Source of the DNA: Eunapius fragilis
Lineage: Eukaryota; Porifera; Demospongiae; Spongillida; Spongillidae
Length of the DNA: 64,000 bases
Assembly (NCBI GenBank): GCA_963681505.1
Contig: OY811976.1
Coordinates: forward strand, 62,001-126,000
Reading direction: 5' to 3'
The translations under genes and the position numbers were made by a program. Numbering within the stretch: the first letter of the stretch is position 1; every line of letters begins with the position of its first letter. The notes beneath the pieces were generated by a model. That model was not told the origin of the DNA and searched no databases. It saw only the letters and a program-made list of their open reading frames with translations. This document shows positions 9,347 to 64,000 of the stretch, in pieces.

Positions 9347-9578
9347 ATGGGTCAGGTATTATGACCAGTGTAGGTCATGTGTCATATTGCCATTGTGCAT
9401 GCTGCCAGCGTTTGACCTTTGAGTTAAACGGGAAACCCAGGGGGGCCAGGTACTTCGTGTTCGTAGTACTAGTATTCGGTGTAAGTACATCGCTCGAAAG
9501 ACCAAATGGCAAAACCTTTCTTAGGTGTTCACCCTCGTGTACAATTGTAATCCCCGATGGCATCCATGACAGTTACAA

Positions 9579-20463: not shown

Positions 20464-20481
20464 TGGCGTAGTCGGCAGGAT
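20464..20481 (+). promoter_or_regulatory. Primer binding site, tRNA-Ser type
   Basis: TGGCGTAGTCGGCAGGAT, eight bases after the LTR, is the complement of the CCA-tailed 3' end of eukaryotic tRNA-Ser(UCN) (18 of 18 against the animal sequence as I remember it). Confidence 0.8.
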
Positions 20482-20540
20482 GGCAGTTAGCACAGTTAGT
20501 CCAGCTACTCCAACAACAGATAACGGCGCAGCAGAAAAGC

Positions 20541-24834: not shown

Positions 24835-25054
24835 TGTTGTGGCGAGCATGTACTGAATATTCACCCCCCCTCATGTGCACTAATTAGATTATTCACGCAT
24901 GCGCTTGGTGGGGGGTCTCCTCGTGGATAGAGAATTGTGGTTGATCGACTTTGGCGGTGTAATAAAGTTTTGTTGTAATTGTAGAGACGTGATTAAGTGT
25001 GATTCGCCAACCTATTTCTATTTTGTGAGATCCTGTTTCTGTAAGAACACGACA
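24835..25054 (+). repeat. 3' LTR (220 bp)
   Basis: Same as the 5' LTR except for two substitutions. Poly(A) signal AATAAA at 24,961-24,966. Followed by ATGAG, the right target duplication. Confidence 0.95.
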
Positions 25055-26420: not shown

Positions 26421-26757
26421 TAAGGAAGGTGAGGGTTAGGTAGAGGAGGAAGTACGAATCGGTGAGGGAGAGGGAAGAGATATGAGGGAGAATGATCGCA
26501 CCCATGGATAAGGATTAACCTGCAGTGCATTTGTTGTAAGAAGTACATAACAGCTAGCAGTTTATACATTGCTGGTCATGCTAGATTCCACTGGGTTCGA
26601 TTCTTGGTCAGTACATGTACCCTTTATTTGTTTTGATAGTGTGTTGATTTTAAAAAAAACTGGTTGTCGATTCTCTTTGATACACTGCATCCTGTGTTTT
26701 ATTTGTACATTATAGCAGCAATTCTCAGCATGTAATACAACATCTCTCCCATCTGCA
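26421..26757. other. No gene seen
   Basis: Purine-rich border of the array followed by AT-rich sequence. Confidence 0.4.
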
Positions 26758-27678: not shown

Positions 27679-27726
27679 GGTAAGCCAGTTATGTGGCATG
27701 TGGAGATGATGAATATTGGCCATGCA

Positions 27727-29768: not shown

Positions 29769-30037
29769 TAGGTACAGAGGCCTTTTGTTCATCACATTAT
29801 CACCCCTCCCTCACACCCCTCACCTTCAAAGTAAGGTCACACTCCTCCCTCCCCCATGAGTTAATTTGCTTGTGTGTACTCAACCAAGTCTGCTCAGACT
29901 ACATGCCAACAACAGTGCGGCCTTTTCTCACATACGTTACTTGGTGAGCAGGTACATGTAGACTTCAGAAAAGGAGTGGCGGTTATAAACAGTGTCAAAG
30001 GATAATTAGAGTGTTTAAACTCAGTATACATGTATAT
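29769..30037. other. No gene supported
   Basis: Sequence after the 26-bp array begins CTAG|GTACAGAGG and could be an exon (YRGLLFITLSPLPHT before GTAAGG), but there is no supporting domain. Confidence 0.25.
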
Positions 30038-31961: not shown

Positions 31962-33310
31962 ATGGATGAAGAAGAGTACGATGCCATTTTCAGCTTTCTG
32001 GAGTATGGTACTTAGTTACCCTCTGCATGGCATCACAAGGACCTAAAGCAAGCTCAAGTGTGTGCATGGACTATGCGGTCGATAGTGGCGTATACTGTAC
32101 CGCAAAAAGGATAAAGAAAGAGGGAAAATTGAATATCTTCAAGTTCCTAGAGGCGTAGAAGAAATAGAACGAATCCTTCATGCCATTCGTCCAAAGAAAG
32201 TGAGTATGACTGCCATGCACGTATATACGTACGCATCGGGGCTTGGTTATCGAATTAGTAGTATACTTCATGATCGAAACCAACTATTGACAGCTTTTGC
32301 ATTTAGTCTTGGTCTTTACGCATGCAAGCTGTTTTAAATTTATACAATGCACGCGTGTAAACGGTTGGTAGATCACCAACGTCAATAACCAAGCGCCCGA
32401 AAAGTGTCCGAGGATTAACACTGACTCATGCACGCTATAGGGTTGATCCAATAATCATAATAGCGCTTTTTGTATATACGTGGACACCTGGGAAGGGATA
32501 AAACAAGAGAAAATTAAGGTTTCATCGAGATTCTTCTGGAAGACGCAGATGAAAGATGTATGGGTGCATGAGTTCGTTAGACGTGCGATGCTTGCCCAAT
32601 TCAAGCACCAATGGTGCCAAGTTTATGATAACCGTAGCCCCTCTGCGTCCTATACCTATACAACCTAGTGTTTGGCATCAATTTAGTTGCAATCAAGACT
32701 ACCTTAAGTTAATGCATGCATGCATCAATTTAGGTTGGAATAGGCCTGATTGGTCCTCTCCCAAAAACTGAACGAGGCAATTGTTAAATCATCACCTTAG
32801 TTGATTACTTTTTTAAGTGGCCTGAGGCTGAGCCTATAGCCGACAAGACTGCAAGAACAGTTGCTGAGTTTCTGTATAAGATTATATGCAGACAAATGTT
32901 AATGATTTATTAATTCAGTTTACATATAAGGCTATAAGCATATAAGCATTTCATAACATGTAACTTTCTTACAGGCATGGTTGCACCAACGTTACCATAT
33001 CAGATCAAGAACGTGAATTTGTGAACAGAGTCAATGCAGTACTGTTCCAATTAACGGGAACTGAACACAGGATAATCTACAGCATATACCATCCTCAAAC
33101 TAATGGTTGGTATAATCAAACACTACAACGATCCCTAAGGATATTTATGTTCATTGTGCGTGTCTGATACTGATACCTGACACCGCTTACAGAGACTTGG
33201 TGCAATGTGACACCTGTCACAAATGGTTCCTTATCAAATGTGTTGGCATTCTCACACTTCCAACACTGCATGAGGACAAATGGTGTTGCTCTCCTGTGTA
33301 TGTGACTGAG
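31962..33310 (+). pseudogene. Ginger1-like integrase/transposase pseudogene with PHD finger
   Basis: A start-like MDEEEYDAIFSFLEYG (31,962) is followed, after frame changes, by LYRKKDKERGKIEYLQVPRG with a GTGAGT donor near 32,200. A zinc-binding-like part follows (GHLGRDKTRE, then SSRFFWKTQMKDVWVHEFVR; 32,483-32,580), then the catalytic core. The first catalytic Asp position reads GIGLIGPLP (Asp lost) and is followed by a TAA. VDYFFKWPEAEPIADKTART is preserved, and after an intron (acceptor TTACAG at 32,974) HGCTNVTISDQEREFVN keeps the second Asp. YHPQTNGWYNQTLQRSLR lacks the expected Glu. A PHD finger follows at 33,197-33,295 (VQCDTCHKWFLIKCVGI...DKWCCSP). Stops, indels and two lost catalytic residues mark it as dead. 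Confidence 0.8.
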
Positions 33311-33445
33311 ATACTGATTTATTGTTGGATTGAACCATTTCCAGCTTTTCTTTGTAAAATTAATATGTATCTGAGCGTTTGGCGACCATTTCACCATACG
33401 AAGCTGCATGCCTACACGCTCAGTTTGCTAATCAAACGCAATGTT

Positions 33446-33467
33446 GGGGGGGGGGGGGGGGGGGGGG
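33446..33467. repeat. G homopolymer (22 nt)
   Basis: Uninterrupted G run inside the Ginger1-like element. Confidence 0.9.
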
Positions 33468-33468
33468 T

Positions 33469-33668
33469 TACCCCTGGCCTCACTATGGCTCTGTTACCCC
33501 TAGCCTCACTATGGCTCTGCATGTTACCTCTGGCCTCACTATGGCTCTGTTACCCCATGCAGGCCTCACTATGGCTCTGTCACCCCTGCATGGCCTCACT
33601 ATATGGCTCTCCTCAATATGGATCTGTTACCCCTGGCCTCAATATGGATCTGTTACCCCTGGCCTATC
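33469..33668. repeat. About 26-bp minisatellite (CACTATGGCTCTGTTACCCC)
   Basis: Seven or eight units with variable spacing. Flanking sequence is also duplicated: GATTTATTGTTGATTGAACCATTTCCAGC-like text lies before (33,316) and after (33,699). Confidence 0.8.
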
Positions 33669-33861
33669 TACTCTTCCTGTGTGTGTGTGACTGAGATATT
33701 GATTTATTGTTTGATTGAACCATTTCCAGCTTTTCTTGTATATAATTAATATGTATCCGAGCGTTTGACGACCATTTTACCATACGAAGCTGCATGCCTA
33801 TACACGCTCGCTAATCAAATGCAATGGTTGGAGGGAGGGTGGGGAGGGGGGGGGGGACACA

Positions 33862-41578: not shown

Positions 41579-43126
41579 CTATGTGGTGTCAGTGGCAAAT
41601 AGATTGCAAAGGGGTTTACTGAAGGATTTAAGGTCTTCGGTTTCTTTCCATTTCCCACAGTTGACCAAACTGTATATCAGTGATTCCGAATCAACATCTT
41701 TAAAGTCGTCTTCCGTCAGAAGCATTTGATCTACTTCCTTCAGTATGCTATAAATAAGTAAACCCAATTGTTTCCAATCGAGCAATTCTGCAGTCTTTGT
41801 AGCACCCTTTTCTGGAAATGTGTACATGAAGGAGTTACCATATTTCACTGATCTTTCGGAGCATGGAACAGCTCGATCCAAATCGATCAAAGTCACGTTG
41901 CCTTGGTGATAACATACATTTGGCAACCTTACATCTAGGTGTGCATAACCACATCTATGGAACTCGTCAAGTGCGTGTTTGATACCAGCAGCTATTGAAC
42001 AAAGGTAGTGTATTAGCTCAGAACTTTCAAAATCTGTTAGTTGGTGTTCTTGTCTCTCGTACAGAAAAAAACACACCTGCTTATCTCCTACTACCAATTG
42101 TTGTTTTTCTGGATAGACAATTAAACTGCTTTTCTCTTTTTGTGCAACAAGCAATCTGAACAAAGTATGTTCATAACGAGGAGCGTACTTGAAATAGTAG
42201 TGTTTATTATCAGTAAACACCAAAGAAAATCTTGATTCCACCTGTTTAAGCTTCTCTATTTCTGCATATCCCTTAGACTTCAATTCATTATTTAACAATT
42301 TAAAGAGGATTTTCAATTCTGAATCGTCATATGGCAGAAGAAACTCACGTACATTTCGATTGCTTATTGACACCCCACAAAACCTTCAGAAATCTTCATT
42401 TGATTTTTAGTAACCTCTCTCAATCTCATTTTGATGTTGTGTACCTCTGTCTTTTGAAATGATTTAGCAGTAATGACAAAAAACAGATTTTTAATTTCAA
42501 CAGTCACTTCACATACATACCCACTCTCTTCTGCACTTTTTGGGAAGGCAAAGCCCACCCAAGAAGTGACACTTAGATCATAGTGTCGCACAAAGCGAAG
42601 TTGATCAATAATGTTGCCTGCAAGTTTTGCTACTGAATTTTCCATTGGAGAGGATTGAATTTCATTGTGTAACACACAGCAACAATTGTAGACTATGGCA
42701 ACATCAGGATGCATACGCAACGAACTAAGTAGTGGTTCTAGTATGGAAGCAATTAAAGGAACTGATGATCGATCAAGTAAGTAGCAAACATTACCAGAAT
42801 CGAAACGTTGCTTTTTATCTTCCAGAGAATGTATGCATTCTGTGTAGCTATCATATTGTGGTAATTGTATGTCCAAATGTTGTGCTAACTGGTTAATTAA
42901 CCATTTACACAGTACTTCATAGTCAGACGCATTTTCCCAGTTGCCAGAAATCACGCCTTTCAGGCCATAACGTTCTTTAGGAGGGATTTCCCATGCACAG
43001 TCAAATATCGGCAATGTCCAAATGGGGTCTGACTGAGTCAGTTCACAAGACGGTTTTGTTTTGATTGTTGAAGAGTTTGATTTCTTCAATTTTATTATTT
43101 CAACTTCACGCGAATGCGACATAGAC
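41579..43126 (-). CDS. Protein-kinase-like gene with unknown N-terminal domain
   Basis: Two overlapping minus-strand frames (43,158-42,364 and 42,373-41,579) look like one gene split by a frame change near 42,370, because the second has no ATG there. The N-terminal part (about 250 residues, from MSHSREVEIIKLKK near 43,122) holds SVPLIASILEPLLSSLRMHPDVAIV and ends with YVCEVTVEIKNLFFVITAKS, which could be a nuclease-fold E-x-K strand but is not diagnostic. The C-terminal part (about 264 residues) is kinase-like: YYFKYAPRYEHTLFRLL (N-lobe Lys), FHRCGYAHLDVRLPN (catalytic loop HLD...N in place of HRD) and VTLIDLDRAV (DLD in place of DFG). The arrangement recalls kinase-bearing effectors of the Crinkler type described from many eukaryotes; that is a hypothesis. 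A TGTGCTTAG acceptor precedes 43,126. Confidence 0.65.
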
Positions 43127-43561
43127 CTAAGCACACACTGACACAGATAGAAAAACAAACTTTATATGTACATATAAAGGAAAAAGGAATCAATGATGAT
43201 ACAAAAAATTTTATAGTCCTATACTTGTAATACTTATAAATGTGTACAGTGTATACAATTGTCCCAATTTAAACTTTGAAATGGTCTGGGAACGAGGCTA
43301 GCTAGCAATACATATAGATATAATGTTCATTTTACAATTAAAGTTGACCATTCAGTGAATGAATGGCAATATATCGGAATCGAATCCCCCAGGATGATAT
43401 TCAGGACAACAGACATGAAATGAAGTCATTATTGGGTTGATTATTAAGTCATCATTGGTACATGTAGCTGCTTCCATTTTGCTAGGGTATGTGAATGTAT
43501 CTCTATCAACCTTTAATTAAACACCCCTACCCTTAGAAAACTGGAGAAATAGCACTTACAT
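43127..43561. other. No exon seen (probable intron)
   Basis: AT-rich sequence between the main kinase-like ORF and a possible upstream exon. Confidence 0.35.
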
Positions 43562-44507: not shown

Positions 44508-44601
44508 CACGTGAGTTCCTTTTGGTCGTTTTGAGCATTAATCTCGTGTACTGACAAGTCCGTGTGCATCTGCTAAAGGAGTAGTTATTTTGAGCATAAC
44601 A

Positions 44602-44619
44602 TGGTGTCAGAAGTGGGAT
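44602..44619 (+). promoter_or_regulatory. Primer binding site, tRNA-Leu type
   Basis: TGGTGTCAGAAGTGGGAT complements the CCA-tailed 3' end of animal tRNA-Leu. It directly follows ...GAGCATAACA, which would be the CA end of a 5' LTR. Confidence 0.7.
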
Positions 44620-44634
44620 GCTAAAGGTCTAAAG

Positions 44635-45141
44635 ATGGAGAAGTACCTTGTGCAAGAACCCATGGGTGAAAGCGACCTCACCGACCAATGGACCTACTTC
44701 AAGAAAGTATTCGGGCTGTTCTTAACAGCAATTGGAAAAGGGGATTCTGAGACTACCGTCAAATTAGCGATATTCCTAAGGGTTGCAGGTCAGCAAATTA
44801 ACAACATGCACGAGGCGCTCGTGTTTAGAGAGGGGGAATACAAAGAGGACTATGCCACTGTGATCAAAACGTTGGACAAGCAGTGCGTTAGTCGAACAAG
44901 TAGGCATGTAATTCGGGACCGTTTCTTCCAGATGAAACAGGAACAACGCACTGTGGATCAGTTCGAGGCCGACTTTAGGAAGCAAGTGAAGGACTGCGAC
45001 TTTGGAGCACTGAAGGATGACCTAATGCTGCACGTGCTGATTCGAGGCCTTGACAACGAAAGAATGCGAAGACGCCTAATTGAAACAGACAAACTTGAGC
45101 TAGCCAAGGTGATTCAGATGATTAACCCAAAGATAGCCTAA
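44635..45141 (+). pseudogene. Gag remnant of a second Ty3/gypsy-type retrotransposon
   Basis: An open frame reads MEKYLVQEPMGESDLTDQWT, then FKKVFGLFLTAIGKGDSETT and FFQMKQEQRTVDQFEADFRK...MLHVLIRGLDNERMRRRLIE, the pattern of a retrotransposon capsid domain. It stops at 45,139-45,141, before any zinc knuckle. No protease, RT or 3' LTR follows, so only the LTR end, primer site and capsid remain. The first in-frame ATG overlaps the primer site; MEKYL at 44,635 is the likelier start. Confidence 0.7.
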
Positions 45142-46965: not shown

Positions 46966-46973
46966 CCTCTATC
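46966..46973. other. Left target-site duplication (CCTCTATC)
   Basis: Identical to 60,088-60,095. Removing the intervening element and one copy restores an open minus-strand reading across the junction. Confidence 0.9.
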
Positions 46974-47033
46974 GACCGCTTAGAAGTTAGCCGTACATTC
47001 CACAGCCGTACATTCCACACCAATTAACACAAA
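46974..47033 (+). repeat. Left terminal inverted repeat
   Basis: Starts GACCGCTTAGAAGTTAGCCG; the first 34 bp are exact with the right end. The next 26 bp (GTACATTCCACACCAATTAACAC) match the right end loosely. Confidence 0.85.
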
Positions 47034-47144
47034 TGAACGGCCGTGCGGCCGATGACGTAATTGATTTTGCCGCTGGCAGGATAACAATTACCTAAGAAAC
47101 AATATTATTTTCGGTAATTATGGGGCGTATTTGAATGTGCTTCC

Positions 47145-50090
47145 ATTCTGGGCCTCACCCAGAGGTTGCCAGACGTAGCAAAGTTAATTGGTTCCTCCCA
47201 ACGGCTATGTCATCATTACACACATACATTGAGTAAATTAGATTCTGCTTAATCACCAGGGAAGCATGGTACTGGTGAGGCTGTGCATTCTGGATCTCAC
47301 CCAGAGGTTGCCTGACATGGGAAAGTGTACCTCAGGTCACTGGCCCCTCCCACCTGAGGACCCATGGCTATGTCATCATTACACACACATACATTGAGTA
47401 AGGTAAATACTGCTTAATCACCAGGGAAGAATGGTACTGGTGAGGCTGTGCATTCTGGACCTCACCCAGAGGTTGCCTGACTTGGTAAAGTCTATTTCAT
47501 GTCACTGGCCCTTCCCACCTGAGGACCCATGGCTATGTCATCATTACACACACATACATTGAGTAAATTAGATACTGCTTAATCACCAGGGAAGCGTGGT
47601 ACTGGTGAGGCTGTGCATTCTGGATCTCACCCAGAGGTTGCCTGACATGGGAAAGTCTACCTTAGGTCACTGGCCCCTCCCACCTAAGAACCCATGGCTA
47701 TGTCATCTATACACACACATGCATTGAGTAAGTTAGATACTGCTTAATCACCAGGGAAGCATGGTACTGGTGAGGCTGTGCATTCTGGACCTCACCCAGA
47801 GGTTGCCTGACATGGGAAAGTGTACCTCAGGTCACTGGCCCCTCCCACCTGAGGACCCATGGCTATGTCATCATTACACACACATACATTGAGTAAATTA
47901 GATTCTGCTTAATCACCAGGGAAGCATGGTACTGGTAAGGCTGTGCATTCTGGACCTCATCCAGAGGTTGCCTGACATGGGAAAGTCTACCTCAGGACAC
48001 TGGCCCCTCCCACCTGAGGACCAATGGCTATGTCATCATTACACACACATACATTGAGTAAGTTAGATACTGCTTAATCACCAGGGAAGCATGGTACTGG
48101 TGAGGCTGTGCATTCTGGACCTCACCCAGAGGTTGCCTGACTTGGTAAAGTCTATCTCATGTCACTGGCCCCTCCCACCTGAGGACCCATGGCCATGTTA
48201 TCATTACACACACATACATTGAGTAAGTTAAATACTGCTTAATCACCAGGGAAGCATGGTACTGGTGAGGCTGTGCATTCTGGACCTCACCCAGAGGTTG
48301 CCTGACTTGGTAAAGTCTATTTCATGTCACTGGCCCTTCCCACCTGAGGACCCATGGCTATGTCATCATTACACACACATACATTGAGTAAATTAGATAC
48401 TGCTTAATCACCAGGGAAGCATGGTACTGGTGAGGCTGTGCATTCTGGATCTCACCCAGAGGTTGCCTGACTTGGTAAAGTCTAGCTCATGTCATTGGCC
48501 CCTCCCACATGAGGACCCATGGCTATGTCATCATTACACACACATACATTGAGTAAGTTAGATACTGCTTAATCACCAGGGAAGCATGGTACTGGTGAGG
48601 CTGTGCATTCTGGATCTCACCCAGAGGTTGCCTGACATGGGAAAGTCTACCTCAGGTCACTGGCCCCTCCCACCTGAGGACCCATGGCTATGTCATCATT
48701 ACACACACATACATTGAGTAAATTTGATACTGCTTAATCACCAGGGAAGCATGGTACTGGTGAGGCTGTGCATTCTGGACCTCACCCAGAGGTTGCCTGA
48801 CATGGAAAAGTCTACCTTAGGTCACTGGCCCCTCCCACCTAAGGACCCATGGCTATGTCATCATTACACACACATACATTGAGTAAATTAGATACTGCTT
48901 AATCACCAGGGAAGCATGGTACTGGTGAGGCTGTGCATTCTCGACCTCACCCAAAGGTTGCCTGACATGGGAATGTCTACCTCAGGTCACTGGCCCCTCC
49001 CACCTGAGGACCCATGGCTATGTCATCATTACGCACACATACATTGAGTAAGTTAGATACTGCTTAATCACCAGGGAAGCATGGTACTGGTGAGGCTGTA
49101 CATTCTGGACCTCACCCAGAGGTTGCCTGACATGGGAATGTCTACCTCAGGTCACTGGCCCCTCCCACCTGAGGACCCATGGCTATGTCATCATTACGCA
49201 CACATACATTGAGTAAGTTAGATTCTGCTTAATCACCAGGGAAGCATGGTACTGGTGAGGCTGTGCATTCTGGACCTCACCCTGAGGTTGCCTGACATGG
49301 GAAAGTCTACCTCAGGTCACTGGCCCCTCCCATCTGAGGACCCATGGCTATGTCATCATTACACACACATGCATTGAGTAAGTTAGATACTGCTAAATCA
49401 CCAGGGAAGCATGGTACTGGTGAGGTTGTGCATTCTGGATCTCACCCAGAGGTTGCTTGACTTGGTAAAGTCTAGCTCATGCCATTGGCCCCTCCCACAT
49501 GAGGACCCATGGCTATGTCATCATTACACACACATACATTGAGTAAGTTAGATAGTGCTTAATCACCAGGGAAGCATGGTACTGGTGAGGCTATACAATC
49601 TGGACCTCACCCAGAGGTTGCCTGACTTGGTAAAGTCTATTTCATGTCACTGGCCCTTCCCACCTGAGGACCCATGGCTATGTCATCATTACACACACAT
49701 ACATTGAGTAAATTAGATACTGCTTAATCACCAGGGAAGCATGGTACTGGTGAGGCTGTGCATTCTGGATCTCACCCAGAGGTTGCCTGACATGGGAAAG
49801 TCTACCTTAGGTCACTGGCCCCTCCCACCTAAGGACCCATGGCTATGTCATCTATACACACACATGCATTGAGTAAGTTAGATACTGCTTAATCACCAGG
49901 GAAGCATGGTACTGGTGAGGCTGTACATTCTGGACCTCACCCAGAGGTTGCCTGACATGGGAAAGTGTACCTCAGGTCACTGGCCCCTCCCACCTGAGAA
50001 CCCATGGCTATGTCATCATTACCCACGCATACATTGAGTGTTGTAATCACCTTAGGGAAGCATTGTAGTGGGTCTCCTACAGAGAGACTA
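47145..50090 (+). repeat. 165-bp tandem array, left (about 18 copies)
   Basis: Strict 165-bp period: CATTCTGG recurs at 47,286, 47,451, 47,616, 47,781, 47,946 and 48,111. The unit includes CTCACCCAGAGGTTGCCTGA, CACCTGAGGACCCATGGCTA, ACACACATACATTGAGTAA and AATCACCAGGGAAGCATGGT. Each unit holds an internal inverted pair CCTCAGGT/ACCTGAGG. The first and last copies are divergent. Confidence 0.97.
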
Positions 50091-50268
50091 TCTGACCTGT
50101 GTCAAGATTCTCTTTATTAGCATTTAATTGTATGTGTTAATTCTCTATTAGCACAGTTTGTGTGAGTGGCATGGCTTGGTGTAGAATGCTTATTGTCTAG
50201 AATATTCCTAGATAGTATTTTAACACGGATTTTTTCCTTATTTATTGTGTGGTTGAAATTGTATTAGC

Positions 50269-53200
50269 ATGGTATGTTGCTGCTTAATGGTGTCTGCACT
50301 GTTTATTTTGCAAAATTTTCTCAGGGACGAACAAAATACAACATTGATCCTGCACGTTTTGTAGCTGTCCTTGTCAATAGAGGCCAGCCCCCTCTTGATG
50401 CCTCAAGGAAAGCTCCATGTGGGTACTGGTTTTTAGTAGCTGCATCTCTCTCGGGCTGTAGCAAGCCATCAGACAAGTATGTACTGGCTGTGTACAAATA
50501 CTGGAGAAGTAACAGAGGCAATCTGCACACATTGTTAGGTAATATGGTAGTTTCCAATCTGCACTAACTTATGTTTGTTTTTTGCTGCACTTTAGGTGAG
50601 GTTAATGACAGTACGGTTACCATTCCATTGGAGGGAGATGAAATAGTTCCTGTGCCTGAGACAAATGATGTTGATGAAGTTGATGAATGGATTATCAGAG
50701 TGTCTGAAGACGAGGGTGATAGAACAGATGCACTTCAAGTGTTTGAAAAAGAGGATACATTGATACAGCATGGCATTGTTCGCATAATAATGTAATGTTG
50801 GTCTAACTTATTATATTGTGAATTTCTGTCAGGCTGAATCAACAAGTGAATTCCCACTGAGAAGAGATGACAAGGTGTGTAGACATTAAGTACTTTGTAG
50901 TGATGCATATTTATTTAGGATTTGTCACAGGGGGTGAAGATGGAATCATTACAACTGTTTTGTTTATGTCAACAACCTTATGATCCATCAAAGTAAGAGT
51001 ACTGCTAGTAACAAATTACTTAACTACCCTTATTTATTTCTTTCTAGATTCATGATTGGTTGTGATTATTGCAATGAATGGTTTCACGGTAGCTGTGTAG
51101 GTATTAGTACAGTAGAAGCATCATCTATTGAGACTTACAAATGTCCTACCTGCTGTAAGGAGTGTATTGAGGATCCTTTCTACATTGAAGGTATAAACAG
51201 CTTTACATGAATAATGTACTCCATATGTACTGTTGCTACAGAATTATCAAGTGAATCAAGAGGCATTCCAACTTCTCAAAAGGTTTGAATTTTTAAGGGT
51301 TCTATATGAGTTTGTGTGGTTTGCATTGTGAGTGTGTTCGTGCATGTATTTCATTAGCTAGTGATCTAAACGCATAGTCATATCTGGTGTGCAGTGTATG
51401 CATATGTATTTCACTTTCCATAATCTGATGTACACATTTAGAGTATGTTTATATATGAGGGATTTGATACAATTAAATATCTGCTTACAACAATCCTAAC
51501 ATAGTTCCATTAATTGCATTACCGTAACTAGTAAAATGACTTAAGTGTGCAGAGTAATAATTATATATAACCTTTCCCTTCATTTCGTTCTGACCATGAC
51601 AAGCAATAGGTTAATACATAGGAGGTATTATACAATTTGTGACAATATTTAATAATGCTTTGTTTGTTTCAGCAAACAGATTTATGTAGAATTACAGCAG
51701 AACTGCTTGCCCAATCTGCTGACTTACCAACCAGCAACATGTTTTGTAAATCCACACTACATCGTGGTTCTTTTTCAATCACAAAGATAGTGTGGGATAC
51801 AATCTGCATAGGGGACACTATGAACCCGTCTTGGGTGCACGTAATGGTAAATGGGCTATCTGAGATCAACCAGTGCTGCTGTTTTGCTTTTAAGCGACAC
51901 TGGAAAAAGCAAGTCCAGTCAAGGAAACAGCTTAGTTCAATTTTCAGAGCAGATGCTTATTGCACCTTTTCTTCATGTCCAGTAACTGCAAAGCTTTCTA
52001 TAACTAAACAAAACATTCATGTAGATAGTGTCATTGTTGAGGTCAAGTTCACTGGATCTACGCAGCACGTTACAGGGGAAACAAAAGCTCGAAATATTAG
52101 TTTGTCTGTAAGGAACGACATGCAACAACATGTTCAAATGACGCACACTGCACCATCAAAAGAGTACCATCAAAGGCTGATAGCTCTTAGCTCTGAGCAG
52201 TATGCATCAGGGAATAGAAATGGAGTTGGTTGTTCAAGTTCAGTAATCAGAAAAATATCATCAGAAGCAAGGCTGGCAATGCAATGTGACAAGGATCTTA
52301 TTATGTCACTCTTAATACTTCAAACCGAATTATTAATGGAATCAGTTTCTAGTAATAAATCTGTTAAAGGCTATATCCAGCATATTCATGTTGCACCATT
52401 CAGTGTCATATGTTATAATGAGGCCTCAGTTCGTTTGTACCATGAGATAGCCAAATCTTCTCCACTGTTTTGTGATGCAACAGGTACAATAGTTGCCTTA
52501 CCCAAGAAAATAGGTAAACAGCCTACTGTCTATTATTATGCACTTGTTTTAAAACATCCTGTTGATGGCAAGGCTCCAATTGCTGTTGCAGAGCTAATTA
52601 CAGAGGACCACACAGTGCTATCCATATCTTTTTTTCTGCAAAGTTTTAGACGAGCTGAGAGTTTATTGTACGGTGCATGTAATTTGATAAATCCTGGTCA
52701 AGTCATCACTGACAGGAGTCAAGTGCTTCTGATCAGCTTTCTCCAAGTGTACTGCATGGAATCAATTGGAGATTACCTACATAGAGCTTTTAGAATTGTG
52801 AGTGGTTCAGGTAAACCCAAAGAATTCTCAAAAATTTTGCCTCATGCCTGTACCAGCCATGTCATGAATTCAGTCAAGAAGGACACCAAAAAGTGGTGCG
52901 TTTCATTATGCTACAAATATAAATGTAACTGGTTATTTCCATTTCAGGTTTCAAAATGAGCAATACAGGTTTAGCATGTACTGCTTTTCCATTGCAGTAA
53001 ACTGTTCAACACTTGACGAGTTGTCAAAAATCGTATGTTTGTATAAGTTATTATATTGCTCTAAGATGGAAACTGATGGCATGGTAACGGCATATAATTC
53101 TTTAGTCAGTATGGTCAATTCCTTTCGAGAAGACCAGATGTGCTTTCAAGACGAGGCTGAACAACCTGAAGCTGTTGTTGATCATGACTACAATCTTACT

Positions 53201-54337
53201 GTTCATCATCCATTTGGAGCTTACTTTAGCCAAAAAACCGATAAGGTGGTACTCACTGATGGAGGTAGTACTGTAAACATGTACTATAAGCCTGAATACT
53301 TTGATGTGTTAATGAAAAATTGATTTCCAATGGCTCCATTTTGGAGTGGACTTATGCTTGGTAAGGCACATTCTAAATTACGCATCTTCAACATGATTTA
53401 CATTAGTTTTCTATTGTAGGGGACCTTCAGCGCCATAAACAGGAGACATCACATGAAAACCAAGTATTATACTATTACCATTTAAGTATGTTATTTTTAA
53501 TAAGTTCACTTTGTCTTATCTTTCTAGAGATATGTGCAAAACAGCAGGAACAATAGAAGCATGGAACTACATATTAAAGAGGATAGATCATACAGAAATG
53601 CACATGAGACCAGATGTTTTTATTCGCAATCACTATCCAGTAATATTGGGAAGACAGCGGCAATTTTATGATGACCTACACAAGTCCTCAAGAAAAAGGC
53701 TGAAGGTGTCAATAAATGTATTTTGTTTCTTTTTCATATGAATAGCTTTTTTTGTTATAGACATCTGAGTCCAAAAAAGGTTTTCGCCAAATTTGTGAAA
53801 AATGGTCAAAGAGAAAAGTCAACAATGATGCCATCAACAATTCTATTGGATATTTTCAACAGAAGCCACCTAAACCATTTTCTATTAAGAATCAGACGTA
53901 TGTTGAATAACAATCTTACTGCGGCATCATATATTCATAAATAGAATGTATAAATTGCAGCAATGAACAAAGCAAGAAAGTAACGCCCAACACAACAACA
54001 AGGTTGTTACATTTTAAAAAATTTGGTTTAGTAAGATTAAATTTGTAACAATAAAATTATAGAGATGTAGCCAAGGCAGTAGAAGTGGATGATTGTTTTG
54101 CTGAGTCTGTGGATACACTCCTTGATCACAAGTAAGGGCACAAGGGTGCATCATTGATTTAAGGTGGATATAAATTAACATGCCATTTATCCCTTTATTG
54201 AAAGAAGTCACAAGGCTGCTTCTACAACACTTAGAACTGCTGCAAATGTAGGGGCTAAGGAACTTGCAGTCATGTTGAGCATTGCAGCTCTACTCAACAT
54301 AGCTGCAAGTTGTTGTTCAAAAATCGATGCCATATAA
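50269..54337 (+). CDS. PHD finger-DDE (MULE-like) transposase of the foldback element
   Basis: About 15 exons with matching phases. ATG at 50,269 is followed at once by a GTATGT donor; exons 50,325-50,538, 50,596-50,738, 50,833-50,874 and 50,931-50,992 follow. A PHD finger is split over 50,931-51,190 (LFCLCQQPYDPS | FMIGCDYCNEWFHGSC...YKCPTC). The main exon is 51,673-52,895, then 52,948-53,360, 53,420-53,485, about 53,530-53,705, 53,761-53,897, 53,961-54,002, 54,063-54,131 and about 54,205-54,337. The catalytic core shows LFCDATGTIV (Asp codon 52,474), QVITDRSQVLL (Asp codon 52,711) and LPHACTSHVMNSVKK, an order like Mutator-type and foldback transposases. A TGA at 53,321 interrupts MKN*FPMAPFWSGLMLG in frame, so this copy is probably inactive. 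The reading ends at TAA 54,335 overlapping ATG 54,327, or continues into the USP module if that TAA is a mutation. Confidence 0.78.
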
Positions 54338-57300
54338 GTCTGGCAAGTACCCCATACTTGTATTAAAGCTTTTTATTTATCAGGAAGAAACAGGAGCCAT
54401 CATAGAAGTTGCACGAAAACAGAACAAAGGACTGGAAAATTCATCAAACATATGCTGGCTGAATGCTGCCATACAAGCCTTGTTTACAACACCACTGTAC
54501 ATGATGATGAAAGGTATGTGGTAACTTTCTTACTTTGTATTTTGTGTTATGCACCATAGTTATGATTACCTATAATCCTTATACAGCAATGATGTCATTA
54601 AGTAAGGCATCACTACTTGAAGCATTTGTCAGCATTTGCAATGATTTGGAAGGAATGGTGAATCATCCCTGTGATCCTGCAAATCTTGCAGTAAGATTAT
54701 GTCACAATGGTTAGAATGCAATACATTTCTGATAAAACAAACATTAGGATGCAATCAGTGCAGAAATGGTCAGTCTTACTCGAGGTGCTCAAAATGACTG
54801 CTGTGAAGGAATCACTGCATTGTTAGAGAGATTGTTTATGGAAACGGAGGTTTAATGAACAATTTCATGGCAAAACATCAAATGAGCAACTTATGCCCTC
54901 TATTGCTAGATTGGTCATAAAATCCAACAGCAGATTTGCACATCTGTTACAAGGCAGTCCCAGTGTTGTTAGAAGGTGCATTTTCCTTTTGTTCTAACCA
55001 GTGCCTGCCTTAACCACAATATAACAAACAGAATGTGTGTGAAATCAATGCTTTCACTGTGATCCCATGTGGTGTTAACCAAACACATGGAAGAAGTGTT
55101 TTTGATTTAATGAGGGAGTGGCTAGATGGCAGACTCTCTGAAATGGAAGGACCACAAGTGTTAGATGTGTTACTGTAGTTCGAATTTTTTTTTTTTGTGC
55201 CATTTACACTATAGATTCTGTGAAGGTTGCAACCAACGTTTATCTGCTCAGCAGAGAGAATTATCATTTCCATCCATCTTAATTATTCATTGCTCAAGAG
55301 TATCAGCCAATAACACATACAGAAAGCTAAAAACCAGAATTGAAGTTCCAAGGTTTGCATCACAATTACCATTTAACACAAATGACTTATTTGTATTACA
55401 GATCATACCAACTGACTCATCCATGCTCCAGTGTCAATAGTGTCTATGAACTAAGTGCCTTGGTGGTAAGTTTGTATGCGCACGTTTCAGTAATGATTAT
55501 TTTTTCATTTATTTATTTAGCTTCATCACGGAAAAAGTGCAAATGAAGGACATTGTAATCCATGAAGAATACAATAAATCACTTATTAAGTTAACTTCTT
55601 TCAGACACATGCATTGTGCGGAGCAGGAATGCGTGGATTCATTATAATGATGTAGAAGTCAGTTTGGTTTCGCTTCCTGATTACAACTGCTCAAAAGAAG
55701 TGAAGGTAAAGATGTAAACAAATTATGACCATTATATTGTATTCAATTTTAGGAGAATGTATCATTGGCACTCTATACAACTTCTATGACATCCGTATGT
55801 GATGGCATGCATATTTGAGTCGCATCACATTGATGCATTGATTGATTTGCAGACATTCCTGGATAAATGCAAATGCAATTCCAATCCACCTCCAATATAT
55901 TTTCAGAAGTTCCACACTCTGGTAAGTGGCATGTGTGTTGCTGTTACATATTTGAAAGGTTGCATAATGGAATACTTCAATTCAGGAGTATTCCGGTTTA
56001 CCAGTGGAAATTGAAGCTGAGGTTGATTTATTAAATAAATGTATACAATGAACAACAACTTTCTTTCAGCTTAGGACAAAAGGAGCAAAACCACACTCCA
56101 GTTTTCAGCTAGAGAAATGTGATTTAACATCATTGATAAGTGGAGAATGGATCAGCTCAAGAGTAAAGTACTTTCCACATATAATGGTCAAATCAAAGAG
56201 TATTCTTATTCAACAGATCATTGCTGCTTATTTGGATCTACTTCAGAACTCTGTACATGTAAGCATTTGCATGTCTTTGTATAGTAATCCTACAAGCCAC
56301 TACATTACTAGGGAATGAAAGTCATTTCCTTTGATCCAACATTCTTGCCAGCCTTCAAAGCAAAAGGCTACAGTGGAGTTAGAAGGTCTGCAAAGGTAAA
56401 CAAAATCCATGTGTGAACTAATTTATAACACTAATCATTGGGTAGGGGAAGAATGTGATGGACTATGACATGCTCCTGTTTCCAGTACATAAACCACAAC
56501 ACTGGTGTCTAGTGGTTAGCATTTCTGTTTTTTTACTACATCTACCTGTGGATAAACAATACTGGTTTGCAGGTGGTTTATCTTAAGTCAAAGGAAATTC
56601 ACTGCATTGATTCACTAAATTGCAGCAATGAAGATGCTGTCAATTGGATATGGTGAAATGGGAAATTTGTCCTGTCAAAAATAATTGTTGTGTTTTTTAT
56701 ATTAAGGATGTATATGGCCATCGAAGTACAATATTCAAGTAAGACTCAACTCTCAAGCTCAGATTGGAAGTTTAGTGATGTAATGGTATACATAGTGCCT
56801 TATGCAGTTTGCTCAATGCACACCTTTCCTCTCTAAAGACTGGAGGTACAGATAATCCCATGCAGAAAAATTCACAAGATTGTGGAGTCTTTGTGTGCTT
56901 TGTAAGAATATAATATTATGATTACATGTCCTAGTGTGATGATGAACATATCTATTAGGCTGCAAGACTACTTGTAGAAGGATTCCCTTGTCTGCACACA
57001 CAGGTATGGCATGATGTTATATGATACTTTGCATCATCTAGAAAAATAATTTTATTGCACCTTTCCATCTAAACAAGGACTTGATTCACAAATTTAGATT
57101 GCAAATGGCACATGAGCTATCACTTGGTGCTCTCTGTTCACTACAATCAGCTGTAAGTATATCAATTAATTATAAATTGCAATCAAAATATTCTCAAACA
57201 TGAAGCATTTAGGACAAGCTGTCATAAAAGAAAGCAGTACTGAACATCAAGCTGCACGTGATGAGAATGAGAACAGTGATGATAGTGTTCTGGATCAAAG

Positions 57301-58090
57301 TATTAGGACGGACCATGATATGAGTGAAGGTTATGAAGACGATGGCAATAATGATGATTGTGATGACAAAGGTGATGAGGATGAAGATGAAGAGAGGGAC
57401 CCCAATTTTTTAGTTCCCACATATATCAATCAACCGGATCCAAATGATTTATGTGCACTTAAATGGGGCAAAGATCATTACATGAAATATCTTCCATCAA
57501 TGAAAAGAAAACCGTATACGTGAGGCAATACAATCCAGTTGTATACATCAATTTTACTGCAAAATCTCTCAGAAAACAACAGTGTCCATTTGAGAGAAAT
57601 TTCATCAGAAAAGTGGTGAAAGAAATGGAAGTAAATAACGCACGTTAGTTTAGGAATATAAATTAATTGTTTATACCTGGCACAGCCTGCCATCAGAAGG
57701 ATCCAGTCAGGAAAACAAAAAAGTGTATTCTATCAGCATACTTCAACAGTGGAGAAGAACTTGAAATCTGATTGGAACTGGCCATTACAACCTTGTTATG
57801 ATATGGTATTGAAATTGTAAGCAGTTCTCATTAACGTGCAGATTTCTATTTATTCCCAAAGGTTTCGGAGATTTTTCATTATCTCACTGAAGTGGAAAGT
57901 GATAACAATAAGACAGCATCAGTTACCATATCCCGCATAAATAAGCTAATTGTATGGCCTGAGGTAAGCTCTGCAGATTATTCTATAATGTATATGGACA
58001 CAAACAGATTGTTACTACTCTCATCATGATCAAGTACAACATCGACCACAAGCAAGCAACTTGTCACTTTCTTCAACAAACCCTTCCATG
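54327..58090 (+). CDS. Ubiquitin-specific protease fused to Ulp1/SENP SUMO protease
   Basis: USP exons begin at 54,384 (or ATG 54,327). The Cys box is NKGLENSSNICWLNAAIQAL (catalytic Cys codon 54,453). GAQNDCCEGITALLERL resembles the QQDxxEF block. FCEGCNQRLSAQQRELSFPS (55,215 on) is the zinc-finger/palm part. YELSALV|LHHGKSANEGH|YTCIVRSR (His codon 55,551) with WIHYNDVEV completes the His box. Phase-compatible exons run on into a Ulp1 domain: EWISSRVKYFPHI, MKVISFDPTFLPAFKAKGYS, LFPVHKPQHWCLV (His codon 56,500), VVYLKSKEIHCIDSL (Asp codon 56,609), NSQDCGVFVCF (Cys codon 56,881). An acidic tail (57,193 on; DDDxxDEDEDEERDPNFLVP) ends at TGA 58,088-58,090. Expected role: removal of ubiquitin and SUMO from the transposase or host proteins. 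An in-frame TAG at 54,970 may inactivate the USP in this copy. Confidence 0.82.
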
Positions 58091-58189
58091 AAAATGATAA
58101 TTTTCTGTTCTCCCAATATCATATGCCACACCGCATGCACAGCTTCACCAATACGATGCTTCCCTACTTACAATGCAGTATCTAACTTA

Positions 58190-59975
58190 CTCAAAGTATG
58201 TGTGTGTAATGATGACATAGCCATGGGTCCTCAGGTGGGAGGGGCCAATGACATGAGCTAGACTTTACCAAGTCAGGCAACCTCTGGGTGAGATCCAGAA
58301 TTCACAGCCTCACCAGTACCATGCTTCCCTGGTGATTAAGCAGTATCTAATTTACTCAATGTAAGTGTGTGTAATGATGACATAGCCATGGGTCCTCAGG
58401 TGGGAGGGGCAAGTGACATGAGATAGACTTTACCAAGTCAGGCAACCTCTGGGTGAGGTCCAGAATGCACAGCCTCACCAGTACCATGCTTCCCTGGTGA
58501 TTAAGCAGTATCTAACTTACTCAATGTATGTGTGTGTAATGATGACATAGCCATGGGTCCTCAGGTGGGAGGGGCCAGTGACCTGAGGTAGACTTTCCCA
58601 TGTCAGGCAACCTCTGGGTGAGGTCTAGAATGCACAGCCTCACCAGTACCATGCTTCCCTGGTGATTTAGCAGTATCTAACTTACTCAATGTATGTGTGT
58701 GTAATGATGACATAGCCATGGGTCCTCAGGTGGGAAGGGCCAGTGACCTGCAGGAGGTAGACTTTCCCATGTCAGGCAACCTCTGGGTGAGGTCCAGAAT
58801 GCACAGCCTCACCAGTACCATGCTTCCCTGGTGATTAAGCAGAATCTAATTTACTCAATATATGTGTGTCTAAAGATGACATAGCCATGAGTCCTCAGGT
58901 GGGAGCGGCCAGTGACATGAGATAGACTTTACCAAGTCAGGCAACCTCTGGGTGAGGTCCAGAATGCACAACCACACCAGTACCATGCTTCCCTGGTGAT
59001 TAAGCAGTATCTAATTTACTCAATGTATGTGTGTGTAATGATGACATAGCCATGGGTCCTCAGGTGGGAGGGGCCAGTGACATGAGATAGACTTTACCAA
59101 GTCAGGCAACCTCTGGGTGAGGTCCAGAATGCACAGCCTCACCAGTACCATGCTTCCCTGGTGATTAAGCAGTATCTAACTTACTCAATGTGTGTGTAAT
59201 GATGACATAGCCATGGGTCCTCAGGTGGGAGGGGCCAGTGACCTGAGGTACACTTTCCCATGTCAGGCAACCTCTGGGTGAGGTCTAGAATGCACAGCCT
59301 CACCAGTACCATGCTTCCCTGGTGATTTAGCAGTATCTAATTTACTCAATGTATGTGTGTGTAATGATGACATAGCCATGGGTCCTCAGGTGGGAGGGGC
59401 CAGTGACCTGAGGTAGACTTTCCCATGTCAGGCAACCTCTGGGTGAGGTCCAGAATGCACAGCCTCACCAGTACCATGCTTCCCTGGTGATTAAGCAGTA
59501 TCTAACTTACTCAATGTATGTGTGTGTAATGATGACATAGCCTTGGGTCCTCAGGTGGGAGGGGCCAGTGACCTGCAGGAGGTAGACTTTCCCATGTCAG
59601 GCAACCTCTGAGTGAGGTCCAGAATGCACAGCCGCACCAGTACCATGCTTCCCTGGTGATTTAGCAGTATCTAACTTACTCAATGTATGTTTGTGTAATG
59701 ATGACATAGCCATGGGTCCTCATGTGGGAGGGGCCAGTGACATGAGATAGACTTTACCAAGTCAGGCAACCTCTGGGTGAGGTCCAGAATGCACAGCCTC
59801 ACCAGTACCATGCTTCCCTGGTGATTAAGCAGTATCTAACTTACTCAATGTATGTGTGTGTAATGATGACATAGCCATGGGTCCTCAGGTGGGAGGGGCC
59901 AGTGACCTGAGGTAGACTTTCCCATGTCAGGCAACCTCTGGGTGAGGTCCAGAATGCACAGCTTTACCAGTATCA
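58190..59975 (-). repeat. 165-bp tandem array, right (about 11 copies, inverted)
   Basis: Reverse complement of the left array (CCATGGGTCCTCAGGTGGGA, CAGGCAACCTCTGGGTGAG, ACCATGCTTCCCTGGTGATT). Two units carry a 4-5 bp insertion (CCTGCAGGAGGTAG near 58,747 and 59,572), indicating local unit duplication. The first copy abuts the TGA of the coding region by about 100 bp. Confidence 0.97.
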
Positions 59976-60027
59976 TGCTCGTACGTGTAATCATATTCAC
60001 GCATACGCGGCGTGCGCATTATTTTTA

Positions 60028-60087
60028 ATCAGTGCTAATATGTGTGAAATGTGAGGCTGTGGAATGTACGGCTAACTTCTAAGCGGT
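60028..60087 (-). repeat. Right terminal inverted repeat
   Basis: Ends ...CTAACTTCTAAGCGGT, exact inverted copy of the left end over about 33 bp. Confidence 0.85.
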
Positions 60088-60095
60088 CCTCTATC
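60088..60095. other. Right target-site duplication (CCTCTATC)
   Basis: Identical to 46,966-46,973. Confidence 0.9.
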
Positions 60096-60250
60096 TTGGC
60101 GATGAGCTTAGGCGGGAGCCTTGCTGCCGGGTTGAAGGCCGTTGTTGCGCTGCTCGGGAGCGCTGGATCGGACGGGTCGGGATAGAAGGGCAGCCAGCTC
60201 ACGCCCCCGCTAGTGCCTGTTGACTGCTGCTCAAATGTGGGCAAGTCTGT
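60096..60250 (-). pseudogene. Retroelement gag-like ORF, 5' part
   Basis: Minus strand reads MPTFEQQSTGTSGGVSWLPF, then FNPAARLPPKLIAKIE up to the insertion point. It continues at 46,965 (LKFVEMNE) after removal of the 13.1-kb transposon. Start codon at 60,244 is tentative. Confidence 0.55.
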
Positions 60251-62794: not shown

Positions 62795-63010
62795 GTGAGA
62801 GATGGCGAGAGAAGGAGGGAGGGGAGGTGGTGTGAGGAGGAAGGGGAGGAGGGAGGGGAGGTGGTGTGAGGAGGAAGGGGAGGAGGGAGGGGAGGTGGTG
62901 TGAGGAGGAAGGGGAGGAGGGAGGGGAGGTGGTGTGAGGAGGAAGGGGAGGAGGGAGGGGAGGTGGTGTGGGGAGGAAGGGGAGGTGGTGTGAGAAGGGA
63001 GGAAGGTGGT
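62795..63010. repeat. 34-bp purine-rich minisatellite
   Basis: Units with GAGGAAGGGGAGGAGGGAG and GGGAGGTGGTGTG repeated five times; G-rich strand with quadruplex potential. Immediately upstream of the first visible spectrin-repeat exon. Confidence 0.85.
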
Positions 63011-63204
63011 ATGGGGAGGAGGTGATGGTGGAGTTAGTGTGGGGTATTTACGACATGTCAGATCACTATGGAGACATGAATGTCATGCAATTGCACAGCA
63101 TCATACACAACACATGCAAATGTTTGGGGGGAGAGAGATTTAATGATGCAATACCCTTATCTAATGAGCTACTGTACCCTGGGCATGGCAGCATGACCCC
63201 AACA

Positions 63205-64000
63205 CATCCTGTACATTGTCCACTAACACATCCTGTACATGTGTCCACTAACACATCCTGTACATGTGTCCACTAACACACCCTGTACATGTGTCCACTA
63301 ACATATCCTGTACATGTGTCCACTAACACATCCTGTATATGTGTCCACTAACACACCCTGTACATGTGTCCACTAACATATCCTGTACATGTGTCCACTA
63401 ACACACCCTGTACATGTGTCCACTAACATATCCTGTACATGTGTCCACTAACACATCCTGTACATGTGTCCACTAACACACCCTGTACATGTGTCCACTA
63501 ACATATCCTGTACATGTGTCCACTAACACATCCTGTACATGTGTCCACTAACACACCCTGTACATGTGTCCACTAACACATCCTGTACATGTGTTCACTA
63601 ACACACCCTGTACATGTGTCCACTAACACATCCTGTACATGTGTCCACTAACACACCCTGTACATGTGTCCACTAACACATCCTGTACATGTGTCCACTA
63701 ACACACTCTGTACATGTGTCCAATAACACACCCTGTACATGTGTCCACTAACACACCCTGTACATGTGTCCACTAACACACCCTGTACATGTGTCCACTA
63801 ACATATCCTGTACATGTGTCCACTAACACACTCTGTACATGTGTCCACTAACACACTCTGTACATGTGTCCACTAACACACCCTGTACATGTGTCCACTA
63901 ACATATCCTGTACATGTGTCCACTAACACACCCAGTACATGTGTCCACTAACACACCCTGTACATGTGTCCACTAACACACCCTGTACATGTGTCCACTA
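63205..64000. repeat. 25-bp minisatellite (CCTGTACATGTGTCCACTA), runs off the window
   Basis: About 32 units of 25 bp, with variants at the ACA(C/T)A(T/C)CC positions and CTCTG. No unique spacers between units. Continues past the right edge. Confidence 0.97.

Follow-up and report, generated by a model that had tools for sequence, protein, structure and literature searches.

Transposons that carry one protease of the ubiquitin or SUMO pathway are known, and in 2010 these pathways were proposed to take part in transposition (PMC2836005). In Ginger1 elements, the transposase bears a C-terminal Ulp1 or OTU protease, and Ginger1-9_HM combines Ulp1 with a PHD finger; these elements differ from the one described here in their 4-bp duplications (CCGG/CCGT) and Gypsy-type integrase, and none of those in Table 1 of that report has more than one protease (PMC2836005). 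In a Trichomonas protein, a deubiquitinase (C19) is joined to a transposase of another type (transposase_11), with no Ulp1 mentioned in the account given there (PMC2836005). Plants, hydra and lancelet have Mutator elements with an Ulp1 protease, and CryptonF/S elements bear one as a C48 peptidase, but the descriptions in these two articles mention no USP (PMC2836005, PMC3212892). The Mutator-related Rehavkus group, which is included in Repbase, is listed for arthropods and annelids with one ORF, and the terms 'ulp1', 'protease' and 'ubiquitin' are not mentioned in the main text of that article (PMC6446971). A survey of transposon-domain fusions (PMC12062965) contains none of six protease and PHD terms, and our search of the open-access literature yielded no described element with both USP and Ulp1.

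An element with exons for both enzymes is present in the demosponge Eunapius fragilis (contig OY811976.1), at 46975-60087 of the window, which is the 64,000-nucleotide stretch that was analysed (positions 62,001 to 126,000 of the contig). It is very likely one copy of a multi-family, cut-and-paste, Mutator/Rehavkus-like lineage whose product or products combine an H3K4me3-reader-type PHD finger, a DDE transposase, a USP and a Ulp1/SENP protease. The lineage has defined ends, arms made of arrays and a shared exon order, and several of its insertions are flanked by 9-bp duplications; its transposase motifs and protease catalytic residues are kept in families approximately 50% identical.

The terminal inverted repeats (46975..47007 on the plus strand and 60055..60087 on the minus strand) are exact over 33 bp, and the likeness of the ends continues to approximately 57 bp. 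They are flanked by an unstranded target duplication, CCTCTATCG at 46966..46974 and CCTCTATCT at 60088..60096, with 8 of 9 positions identical. An earlier annotation of the window made from the letters alone (the sequence-only reading) had placed the left boundary at 46974, with 34-bp terminal inverted repeats and an exact 8-bp flanking duplication. The inverted repeats are real, but the claimed repeat and duplication overlap by one base and therefore could not both be exact. Because the duplication is a perfect 9 bp in four other copies, whose termini are ACCGC..GCGGT, it is taken as 9 bp long at this locus too, with one mismatch; the exact repeat is 33 bp, and the element starts at 46975. 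A 24-bp end pattern matched twice in the window and in none of 100 shuffles. A 15-bp duplication is also present in the left terminal region (46989-47019). Neither Rfam nor a tRNA scan found anything of use in the window.

Searched genome-wide with a tolerance of three mismatches, a 29-bp end pattern gave 40 matches, compared with none for the reversed control. Among nine end pairs, four have the perfect 9-bp duplications, at four different target sequences; the present copy has 8/9, three have none, and one lies in a run of C and is thus uninformative. The C4 copy, whose ends were located in another way, has terminal inverted repeats of 40 bp (92.5%) and no target duplication. These features bear on the idea that the genes (PHD, transposase-derived protein, USP and SENP) form a cluster that belongs to the host and happens to be bounded by repeats. 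The exons do resemble those of host genes in being on one strand with short introns, but the inverted ends with target duplications and the insertions at different target sequences refute this idea in this genome, and joining both flanks gives an open minus-strand frame across the junction, so that we give it practically no credence. A Pfam search with the joined-flank frame returned one sub-threshold match and nothing else.

The repeat arms were described correctly in the sequence-only reading: tandem arrays of a 165-bp unit extend over 47203..50039 on the left (plus strand, 17.2 copies) and, inverted relative to the left arm, over 58135..59979 on the right (minus strand, 11.2 copies). The term 'foldback-type' is also apt, as in five of the six copies tested, including the present element, one arm is an inverted copy of the other, the exception being C4. 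The C4 and C12 copies have arrays at both ends, as do the five long copies with 165-bp units, and diverged families have arrays of 153-173-bp units; the form of the arms has been retained across families while their sequence has been replaced. A stable hairpin within the 165-bp unit was considered and rejected (folding z-score -0.61, with 52 of 200 shuffles at least as stable). The same applies to the idea that the unit contains copies of the terminal repeat, since the matches of the left outer 48 bp were equalled or exceeded by 15/300 and 118/300 shuffles. The right subterminal 108 bp has two short matches in the unit, one of them 11 bp exact, at levels reached by 5/300 and 1/300 shuffles.

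Between the arms lies a plus-strand coding region with many introns, in the order PHD finger, DDE-type core, USP and Ulp1. It begins with N-terminal exons without a known domain (50325..50777; exons 50325-50538 and 50596-50777). The PHD finger named in the sequence-only reading occupies two exons (50931..51190; 50931-50992 and 51048-51190) and is of the PHF2/PHF8/BPTF type; its Pfam score (1.7e-9, on hand-spliced exons) is above the cut-off, and PHF2 is closest (3.5e-19). The N-terminal/PHD query matched all 11 stretches with a DDE match, and the PHD finger could be aligned in 8 of 10 stretches, C8 and C15:1.07M being without that part.

The transposase core follows on the plus strand at 51673..53897 (exons 51673-52895, 52948-53360, 53528-53705 and 53761-53897), with D at 52474, D at 52711, CxxH at 52849 and E at 53556. 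D268, D347, C393 and H396 are invariant among six aligned sequences, and the presumed catalytic Glu is present in all eight stretches that keep its exon (8/9 stretches keep it). No Pfam match was obtained for the core, whether searched whole, in pieces or as a six-sequence profile, nor a meaningful PDB match even with the profile; structure prediction for the DDE exon alone gave no confident model (mean pLDDT 31.6). The proposed DDE transposase core rests on its motifs, not on similarity to catalogued families, and the region is best regarded as a putative DDE-type transposase on the basis of residues invariant in the aligned copies.

This bears on whether the lineage belongs to another or new superfamily with 9-bp duplications instead of being Mutator/Rehavkus-like. 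The second Asp and the Glu are separated by 229 residues, which is long for Mutator, and this and the absence of a Pfam match to any transposase family would fit such a placement. On the other hand, the second Asp is followed, before the Glu, by a CxxH motif, and the Rehavkus row in Table 1 of PMC6446971 agrees with this lineage in its 9-bp duplication, its PHD finger, its subterminal minisatellite and the length of its ends, so that we regard a separate superfamily as rather unlikely. Membership in Ginger1 was rejected on the basis of the 9-bp duplications of varied sequence and the lack of a Pfam integrase match. Zisupton/KDZ elements have an 8-bp duplication and a KDZ transposase, and were ruled out by the 9-bp duplications here and because the transposase core has no counterpart in Pfam.

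Both proteases named in the sequence-only reading were recovered, on the plus strand. The USP (peptidase C19) exons lie at 54384..55705, with putative catalytic boxes at Cys 54453, His 55551 and Asn/Asp 55646-55651, and match PF00443 at 5.5e-31, with a query piece spanning exon 15-16-17 joins that fail to hold frame. The Ulp1/SENP (peptidase C48) exons lie at 56070..57152, with a predicted triad of His 56500, Asp 56609 and Cys 56881, and match PF02902 at 6.3e-20 and SENP1 at 6.2e-20; like that of the PHD finger, both Pfam scores exceed the Pfam cut-offs and were obtained on hand-spliced exons. In diverged stretches, the Ulp1 His, Asp and Cys are retained in 5/5 and the USP Cys in 4/5. Relative to the C1 copy, dN/dS is 0.24 for USP-Ulp1 and 0.33 for the DDE exon, values that rest on a small number of changes (17 in 435 codons); relative to C8, it is 0.51, with one stop.

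The sequence-only reading had stated that it would be refuted if no further copy shared both the ends and the gene set. Such a copy was found at C1:17034382-17052132; it is 17.7 kb long and has the same ends, longer arms (26.7 and 30.2 copies), a perfect 9-bp duplication and matches to all parts of that gene set. The genome contains close copies as well as families with transposases 50-60% identical. In a hand-made list of 66 transposase (DDE) loci, both proteases are downstream on the same strand at 34, neither at 20, only USP at 10 and only Ulp1 at 2; USP is upstream of DDE at none and on the opposite strand at one. Of 16 stretches examined, 9 have the PHD region, DDE and USP, followed by all or part of Ulp1, in the same order. 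Scans for relatives in viral and prokaryotic contigs led to nothing.

These counts weigh against a reading in which USP and Ulp1 derive from a host gene picked up as Pack-type cargo by an otherwise ordinary transposon, with no role in transposition. Mutator-like elements are prone to acquire host gene fragments (PMC6446971), and some copies with good ends have no proteases: a 10.2-kb copy on C23 has perfect ends and a perfect duplication and no match to either protease, so that a copy can move without them. Against capture, the catalytic residues are retained, dN/dS is below 1 in every comparison that yielded a value, and the USP and SENP chains that score best in PDB resemble the two domains only distantly. 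Because the pair lies downstream, in the same order and on the same strand, at 34 of the 66 loci, and also in families with transposases 50-60% identical, it is a trait of the lineage rather than a one-off capture, and we consider the cargo explanation improbable. A nested second transposon as the source of the proteases was likewise rejected, since the 11 inverted-repeat pairs found in 50040-58134 are short and inexact, the best having 28-29 nt at 72-79%.

The present copy carries an in-frame stop codon at 53321..53323 (plus strand), shared with the C3:0.71M copy; the site is open in the C1 copy and in the five diverged stretches aligned. The joins at 54205-54384 and 54748-55032 are in frame only by using weak splice sites, and the transposase of this copy is probably defective. 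The sequence-only reading had noted neither the stop nor the frame breaks. The hand-built exon chain is out of frame after exon 9, and other joins were used in the pieces for the Pfam and PDB searches. The C-terminal half of the USP, together with the Ulp1, forms a single open frame of 16 exons and 437 codons with no stops, and the two are probably a single polypeptide. A C-terminal exon with an acidic stretch follows (57213..57523, plus strand), and its end is kept in diverged families. A splicing program blind to domains scored 54340-57160 above all 100 shuffles at both penalties (1600 versus a maximum of 1358; 1410 versus 895), with minus-strand scores of 413 and 393, and 50300-54340 above shuffles at one penalty (2160 versus 1588) but not at the other (2240 versus 2310); its first run, with a high intron penalty, gave only a 3-exon chain. 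When it was run on the entire interior and the stop was masked, it produced a stop-free end-to-end chain, which carries no weight for a single gene because its exon boundaries cut known domains and no shuffle comparison accompanied it.

The sequence-only reading had proposed that this class of element uses both ubiquitin and SUMO removal, perhaps in protecting its transposase or countering host silencing, and it may do so. The transposase would bind the ends and the repeat arms and insert with a 9-bp stagger, and the PHD finger may keep it on active chromatin. USP and Ulp1 could then act on the transposase itself, on chromatin and repair proteins in its vicinity, or on both, by removing ubiquitin and SUMO, and the consequence would be a longer-lived transposase and weaker silencing where the element sits or lands. 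As a tentative extension, less likely than not, the lineage may have evolved a built-in counter-silencing module: an H3K4me3-reading transposase with a deubiquitinase and a deSUMOylase that, at the element's own copies, undo repression or turnover dependent on ubiquitin and SUMO, kept through several family splits while the arrays changed in sequence but not in form.

Among foldback elements, Tetris and Tm1 (Mutator/Foldback) share the inverted tandem-repeat arms and have duplications of 8-10 bp and 9 bp, respectively, but Tetris is without apparent coding capacity and Tm1 encodes a Phantom-like transposase (PMC3169594, PMC4079207); the main text of PMC3169594 does not contain 'ubiquitin', 'ulp1' or 'phd'. 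The PHD finger, 9-bp duplication and subterminal minisatellite together point to the Rehavkus group, likened here by its published description and not by sequence. In Table 1 of PMC6446971, Rehavkus has a 9-bp duplication, terminal inverted repeats of 26-400 bp, a PHD finger with the transposase and a minisatellite adjoining the end. The 9-bp duplication here agrees with this and with the Mutator superfamily (8-11 bp in MULEs), the 33-bp ends fall within the range, and the PHD finger lies alongside the transposase and the arrays adjoin the ends as in Rehavkus. With younger and older families in one genome, the lineage looks like an undescribed variant of a known transposon group. It differs from Rehavkus in adding USP and Ulp1 and in having arrays at both ends in the copies named above. 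A PHD-bearing, minisatellite-ended kind of element now includes a far larger gene set, and a lineage with both USP and Ulp1, their catalytic residues kept across its families, makes the 2010 proposal testable.

The element at 46975-60087, bounded by 33-bp terminal inverted repeats, carries plus-strand genes whose domains were largely revealed by splicing. As unspliced single ORFs, only the PHD finger (50931-51190; 7.9e-9) gave a clear Pfam match, the match of the deubiquitinase (USP; 54384-55705) to UCH remaining below the cut-off. When exons were spliced by hand with GT-AG introns, the PHD finger (1.7e-9), UCH (5.5e-31) and the Peptidase_C48 domain of the SUMO protease (Ulp1; 56070-57152; 6.3e-20) all exceeded their Pfam cut-offs, which bears out the exons proposed for these domains in the sequence-only reading. 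Among PDB chains, the PHD finger scored best against PHF2, BPTF and PHF8 (3.5e-19), the USP against USP21 and USP46/12 (1.4e-12), and Ulp1 against SENP1/SENP2 (6.2e-20). Four residues of the PHD finger, F, Y, M and W, align to what we take to be the BPTF cage, and it is a fair guess from these residues that the finger would read H3K4me3. The DDE transposase core (51673-53897) proposed in the same reading held up in part: its D, D and Glu motifs are conserved among copies, and the core, alone or as a profile, matched nothing in Pfam and nothing meaningfully in the PDB.

Because hand splicing is open to bias toward domain extension, two checks were applied. Sixteen exons at 55032-57152, separated by fifteen introns of 40-74 nt, form a chain of 437 codons without a stop that takes in Ulp1 (2.8e-19) and the C-terminal portion of the USP (4.4e-18). 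A domain-blind splicer was applied to 54340-57160 with two penalties and outscored all 100 shuffles under each: it reached 1600 where the best shuffle gave 1358, and 1410 where the best gave 895. On the minus strand it reached 413 and 393. The plus-strand chain of this splicer covers 1429 of the 1671 bases of the hand chain; the boundaries differ in places, including around the USP His box, and the exact gene model is therefore provisional. For the transposase half, the splicer exceeded the shuffle maximum at one penalty (2160 versus 1588) and fell short of it at the other (2240 versus 2310).

The genome (218.9 Mb in 24 contigs, cited here by C numbers) contains at least 103 stretches matching the 438-aa DDE ORF, at least 145 matching the USP and at least 147 matching Ulp1. 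Near-identical DDE copies are present on C1 (98%), C23 (97%) and at two places on C3 (96%), and many further loci show about 50-60% identity. From these matches, which are lower bounds, we listed 66 DDE, 58 USP and 59 Ulp1 loci by hand with one position each, merging rows of one locus by eye, so that a few entries may be pieces of a single locus. Both proteases lie downstream on the same strand at 34 of the 66 DDE loci, the USP only at 10, Ulp1 only at 2 and neither at 20; as a control, a USP lies on the opposite strand in the same range at one DDE locus, and no DDE locus has a same-strand USP upstream. Viewed from the USP, Ulp1 lies downstream of 42 and DDE upstream of 44 of the 58 listed loci.

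Sixteen stretches were examined in detail, and nine (this copy, C1, two on C3, C2, C4, C5, C7 and C12) retain the order PHD region, DDE, USP and at least part of Ulp1, the two on C3 having the Ulp1 start only. The C23 and C16 stretches have the PHD region and DDE only, the C8 stretch the USP, Ulp1 and C-terminal part, and the stretch at 1.07 Mb of C15 Ulp1 and the C-terminal part; three gave no gene-set match. Internally deleted relatives therefore exist, some with good ends. The fetched stretches C8:5161000-5166600, which keeps USP-Ulp1, and C15:1073600-1078500, which keeps Ulp1 alone, each have an end and an array and gave no DDE match.

In keeping with the 13.1-kb foldback-type transposon proposed in the sequence-only reading, further copies with the same ends are present. 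A 24-bp end pattern matched the window twice (46980-47003 and, inverted, 60059-60082; none in 100 shuffles), and a 29-bp end pattern, with up to three mismatches allowed, matched the genome 40 times (none for the reversed control). Among the nine end pairs examined (18 of the 40 matches), four (C1, two on C3, C23) have perfect 9-bp duplications, each of a different target sequence, and three (C3:12.46M, C22, C2) have none; the pair at C15:1.73M sits within a run of C and is uninformative. In this copy 8 of 9 bases are identical. Since the termini in the perfect cases are symmetric (ACCGC..GCGGT), the duplication is 9 bp long, and the earlier 8-bp duplication with a 34-bp repeat had counted one base twice. 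When the flanks are joined, a minus-strand frame, which we take to resemble a retroelement polyprotein, stays open over the junction and meets a stop some twelve residues later; Pfam gave this frame a single sub-threshold match, not to such a polyprotein.

Elsewhere in the window, a Gypsy-type LTR element (20472-24807), whose reverse transcriptase, RNase H and integrase domains are divided between two overlapping frames, and a gag-like retroelement ORF slightly under the Pfam cut-off (44542-45138) lie on the plus strand, as do a 463-aa ORF with a C17orf113-type zinc finger that looks transposon-derived (4971-6359) and another PHD-like ORF, whose similarity to the PHD finger of the element is weak (33116-33691; 5e-4, under the cut-off). 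A weak protein kinase match, also under the cut-off (41582-42385, minus strand), adjoins another long ORF (42367-43161). Minisatellites are abundant in the window (8957-9350, 25051-26424, 27722-29771, 62813-62985 and 63201-64000), and the first two, 16 kb apart, have a repeat in common that is about 90% alike.

The inverted 165-bp arrays were both located, with 17.2 copies at 47203-50039 and 11.2 copies at 58135-59979, mutually inverted. Mean unit identity is 0.941 in the left arm, 0.963 in the right and 0.951 between arms (17 left and 6 right units; two double-length right pieces left out), and one left unit is identical to one right unit across aligned positions. As cross-arm identity is about that within arms, the arms exchange sequence or share a recent amplification. 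The arms are mutually inverted in five of the six copies tested (this copy, C1, C3:0.71M, C23 and C12); in C4 the arrays at the two ends are unrelated to each other, and C2 has a large array on a single side only. Neither the C2 array nor those on the left of C4, C5 and C12 match the 165-bp unit, and in the right-hand array of C4 the match is confined to 35 bp. Thus, the array form persists across families with its sequence replaced. The C4 ends are still recognisably similar (92.5% over 40 bp), and no target duplication was found there.

This copy probably lacks a working transposase: it has an in-frame stop at 53321-53323, and no frame-keeping joins free of weak splice sites were found at 54205-54384 or 54748-55032. 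The stop site is open in the C1 copy and five diverged stretches (C2, C4, C5, C7 and C12; C2 and C7 are close relatives), and the stop is common to the C3:0.71M copy, whose target duplication differs; either a defective lineage carried the stop along or the stop is tolerated. On C3, two copies of 13.3 kb (C3:435593-448913 and C3:706175-719495) lie in opposite orientation; they agree in their Ulp1 truncation and their in-frame stops but differ in their 9-bp duplications. This pattern suggests renewed movement of a broken copy, the enzyme presumably being supplied in trans.

Six DDE sequences, that of this copy and five others showing 51-98% identity with it, all have D268, D347, C393 and H396, and GTIE[A/T]WN, which contains the presumed catalytic Glu, occurs in eight of nine stretches, all those retaining that exon. 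All five diverged stretches retain His, Asp and Cys of Ulp1 as well as the GH and W-x-x-Y-[N/D] motifs of the USP; the USP Cys is present in four, C2 being without that box. For USP-Ulp1, dN/dS was 0.24 against C1 (435 codons; 9 synonymous and 8 other changes) and 0.51 against C8, which has one stop; it was 0.19 for Ulp1 against C15:1.07M and 0.32 for the USP against C3:0.71M. For the DDE exon, the comparison with C1 gave 0.33 and that with C2, in which dS (2.7) is near saturation, gave 0.14; no value was obtainable against C12. All values obtained are below 1, from few changes, and at the sequence level constraint on the proteases appears to be not below that on the transposase.

By analogy with its family, the DDE enzyme would cut and paste the element with a 9-bp stagger. 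The arms may act as repeated binding sites, as PMC4079207 describes for Galileo and suggests for Tetris. The USP and Ulp1 may stabilise the transposase, may loosen SUMO- or ubiquitin-dependent silencing, or may act on repair following excision, a role suggested for Ulp1 and OTU in PMC2836005. The C23 copy has perfect ends and no match to the USP or Ulp1, which indicates that a copy can move without carrying the proteases, and nothing more.

The target duplication rules out identity with Ginger1 and, as KDZ elements have 8-bp duplications, with KDZ. For the Mutator-related Rehavkus elements, PMC6446971 gives a duplication of 9 bp, ends between 26 and 400 bp long, a PHD finger and a minisatellite, and the present lineage shares all four traits. 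It likely belongs to Rehavkus, as matched by description, the DDE core having no Pfam match. In searches of an open-access library, judged by titles, opening lines of abstracts and selected passages, no paper describing a transposon with both a USP and Ulp1 was found. A USP alone or Ulp1 alone is already known in transposons from the same literature; within it, what is new here is the presence of the USP and Ulp1 together in one transposon lineage.
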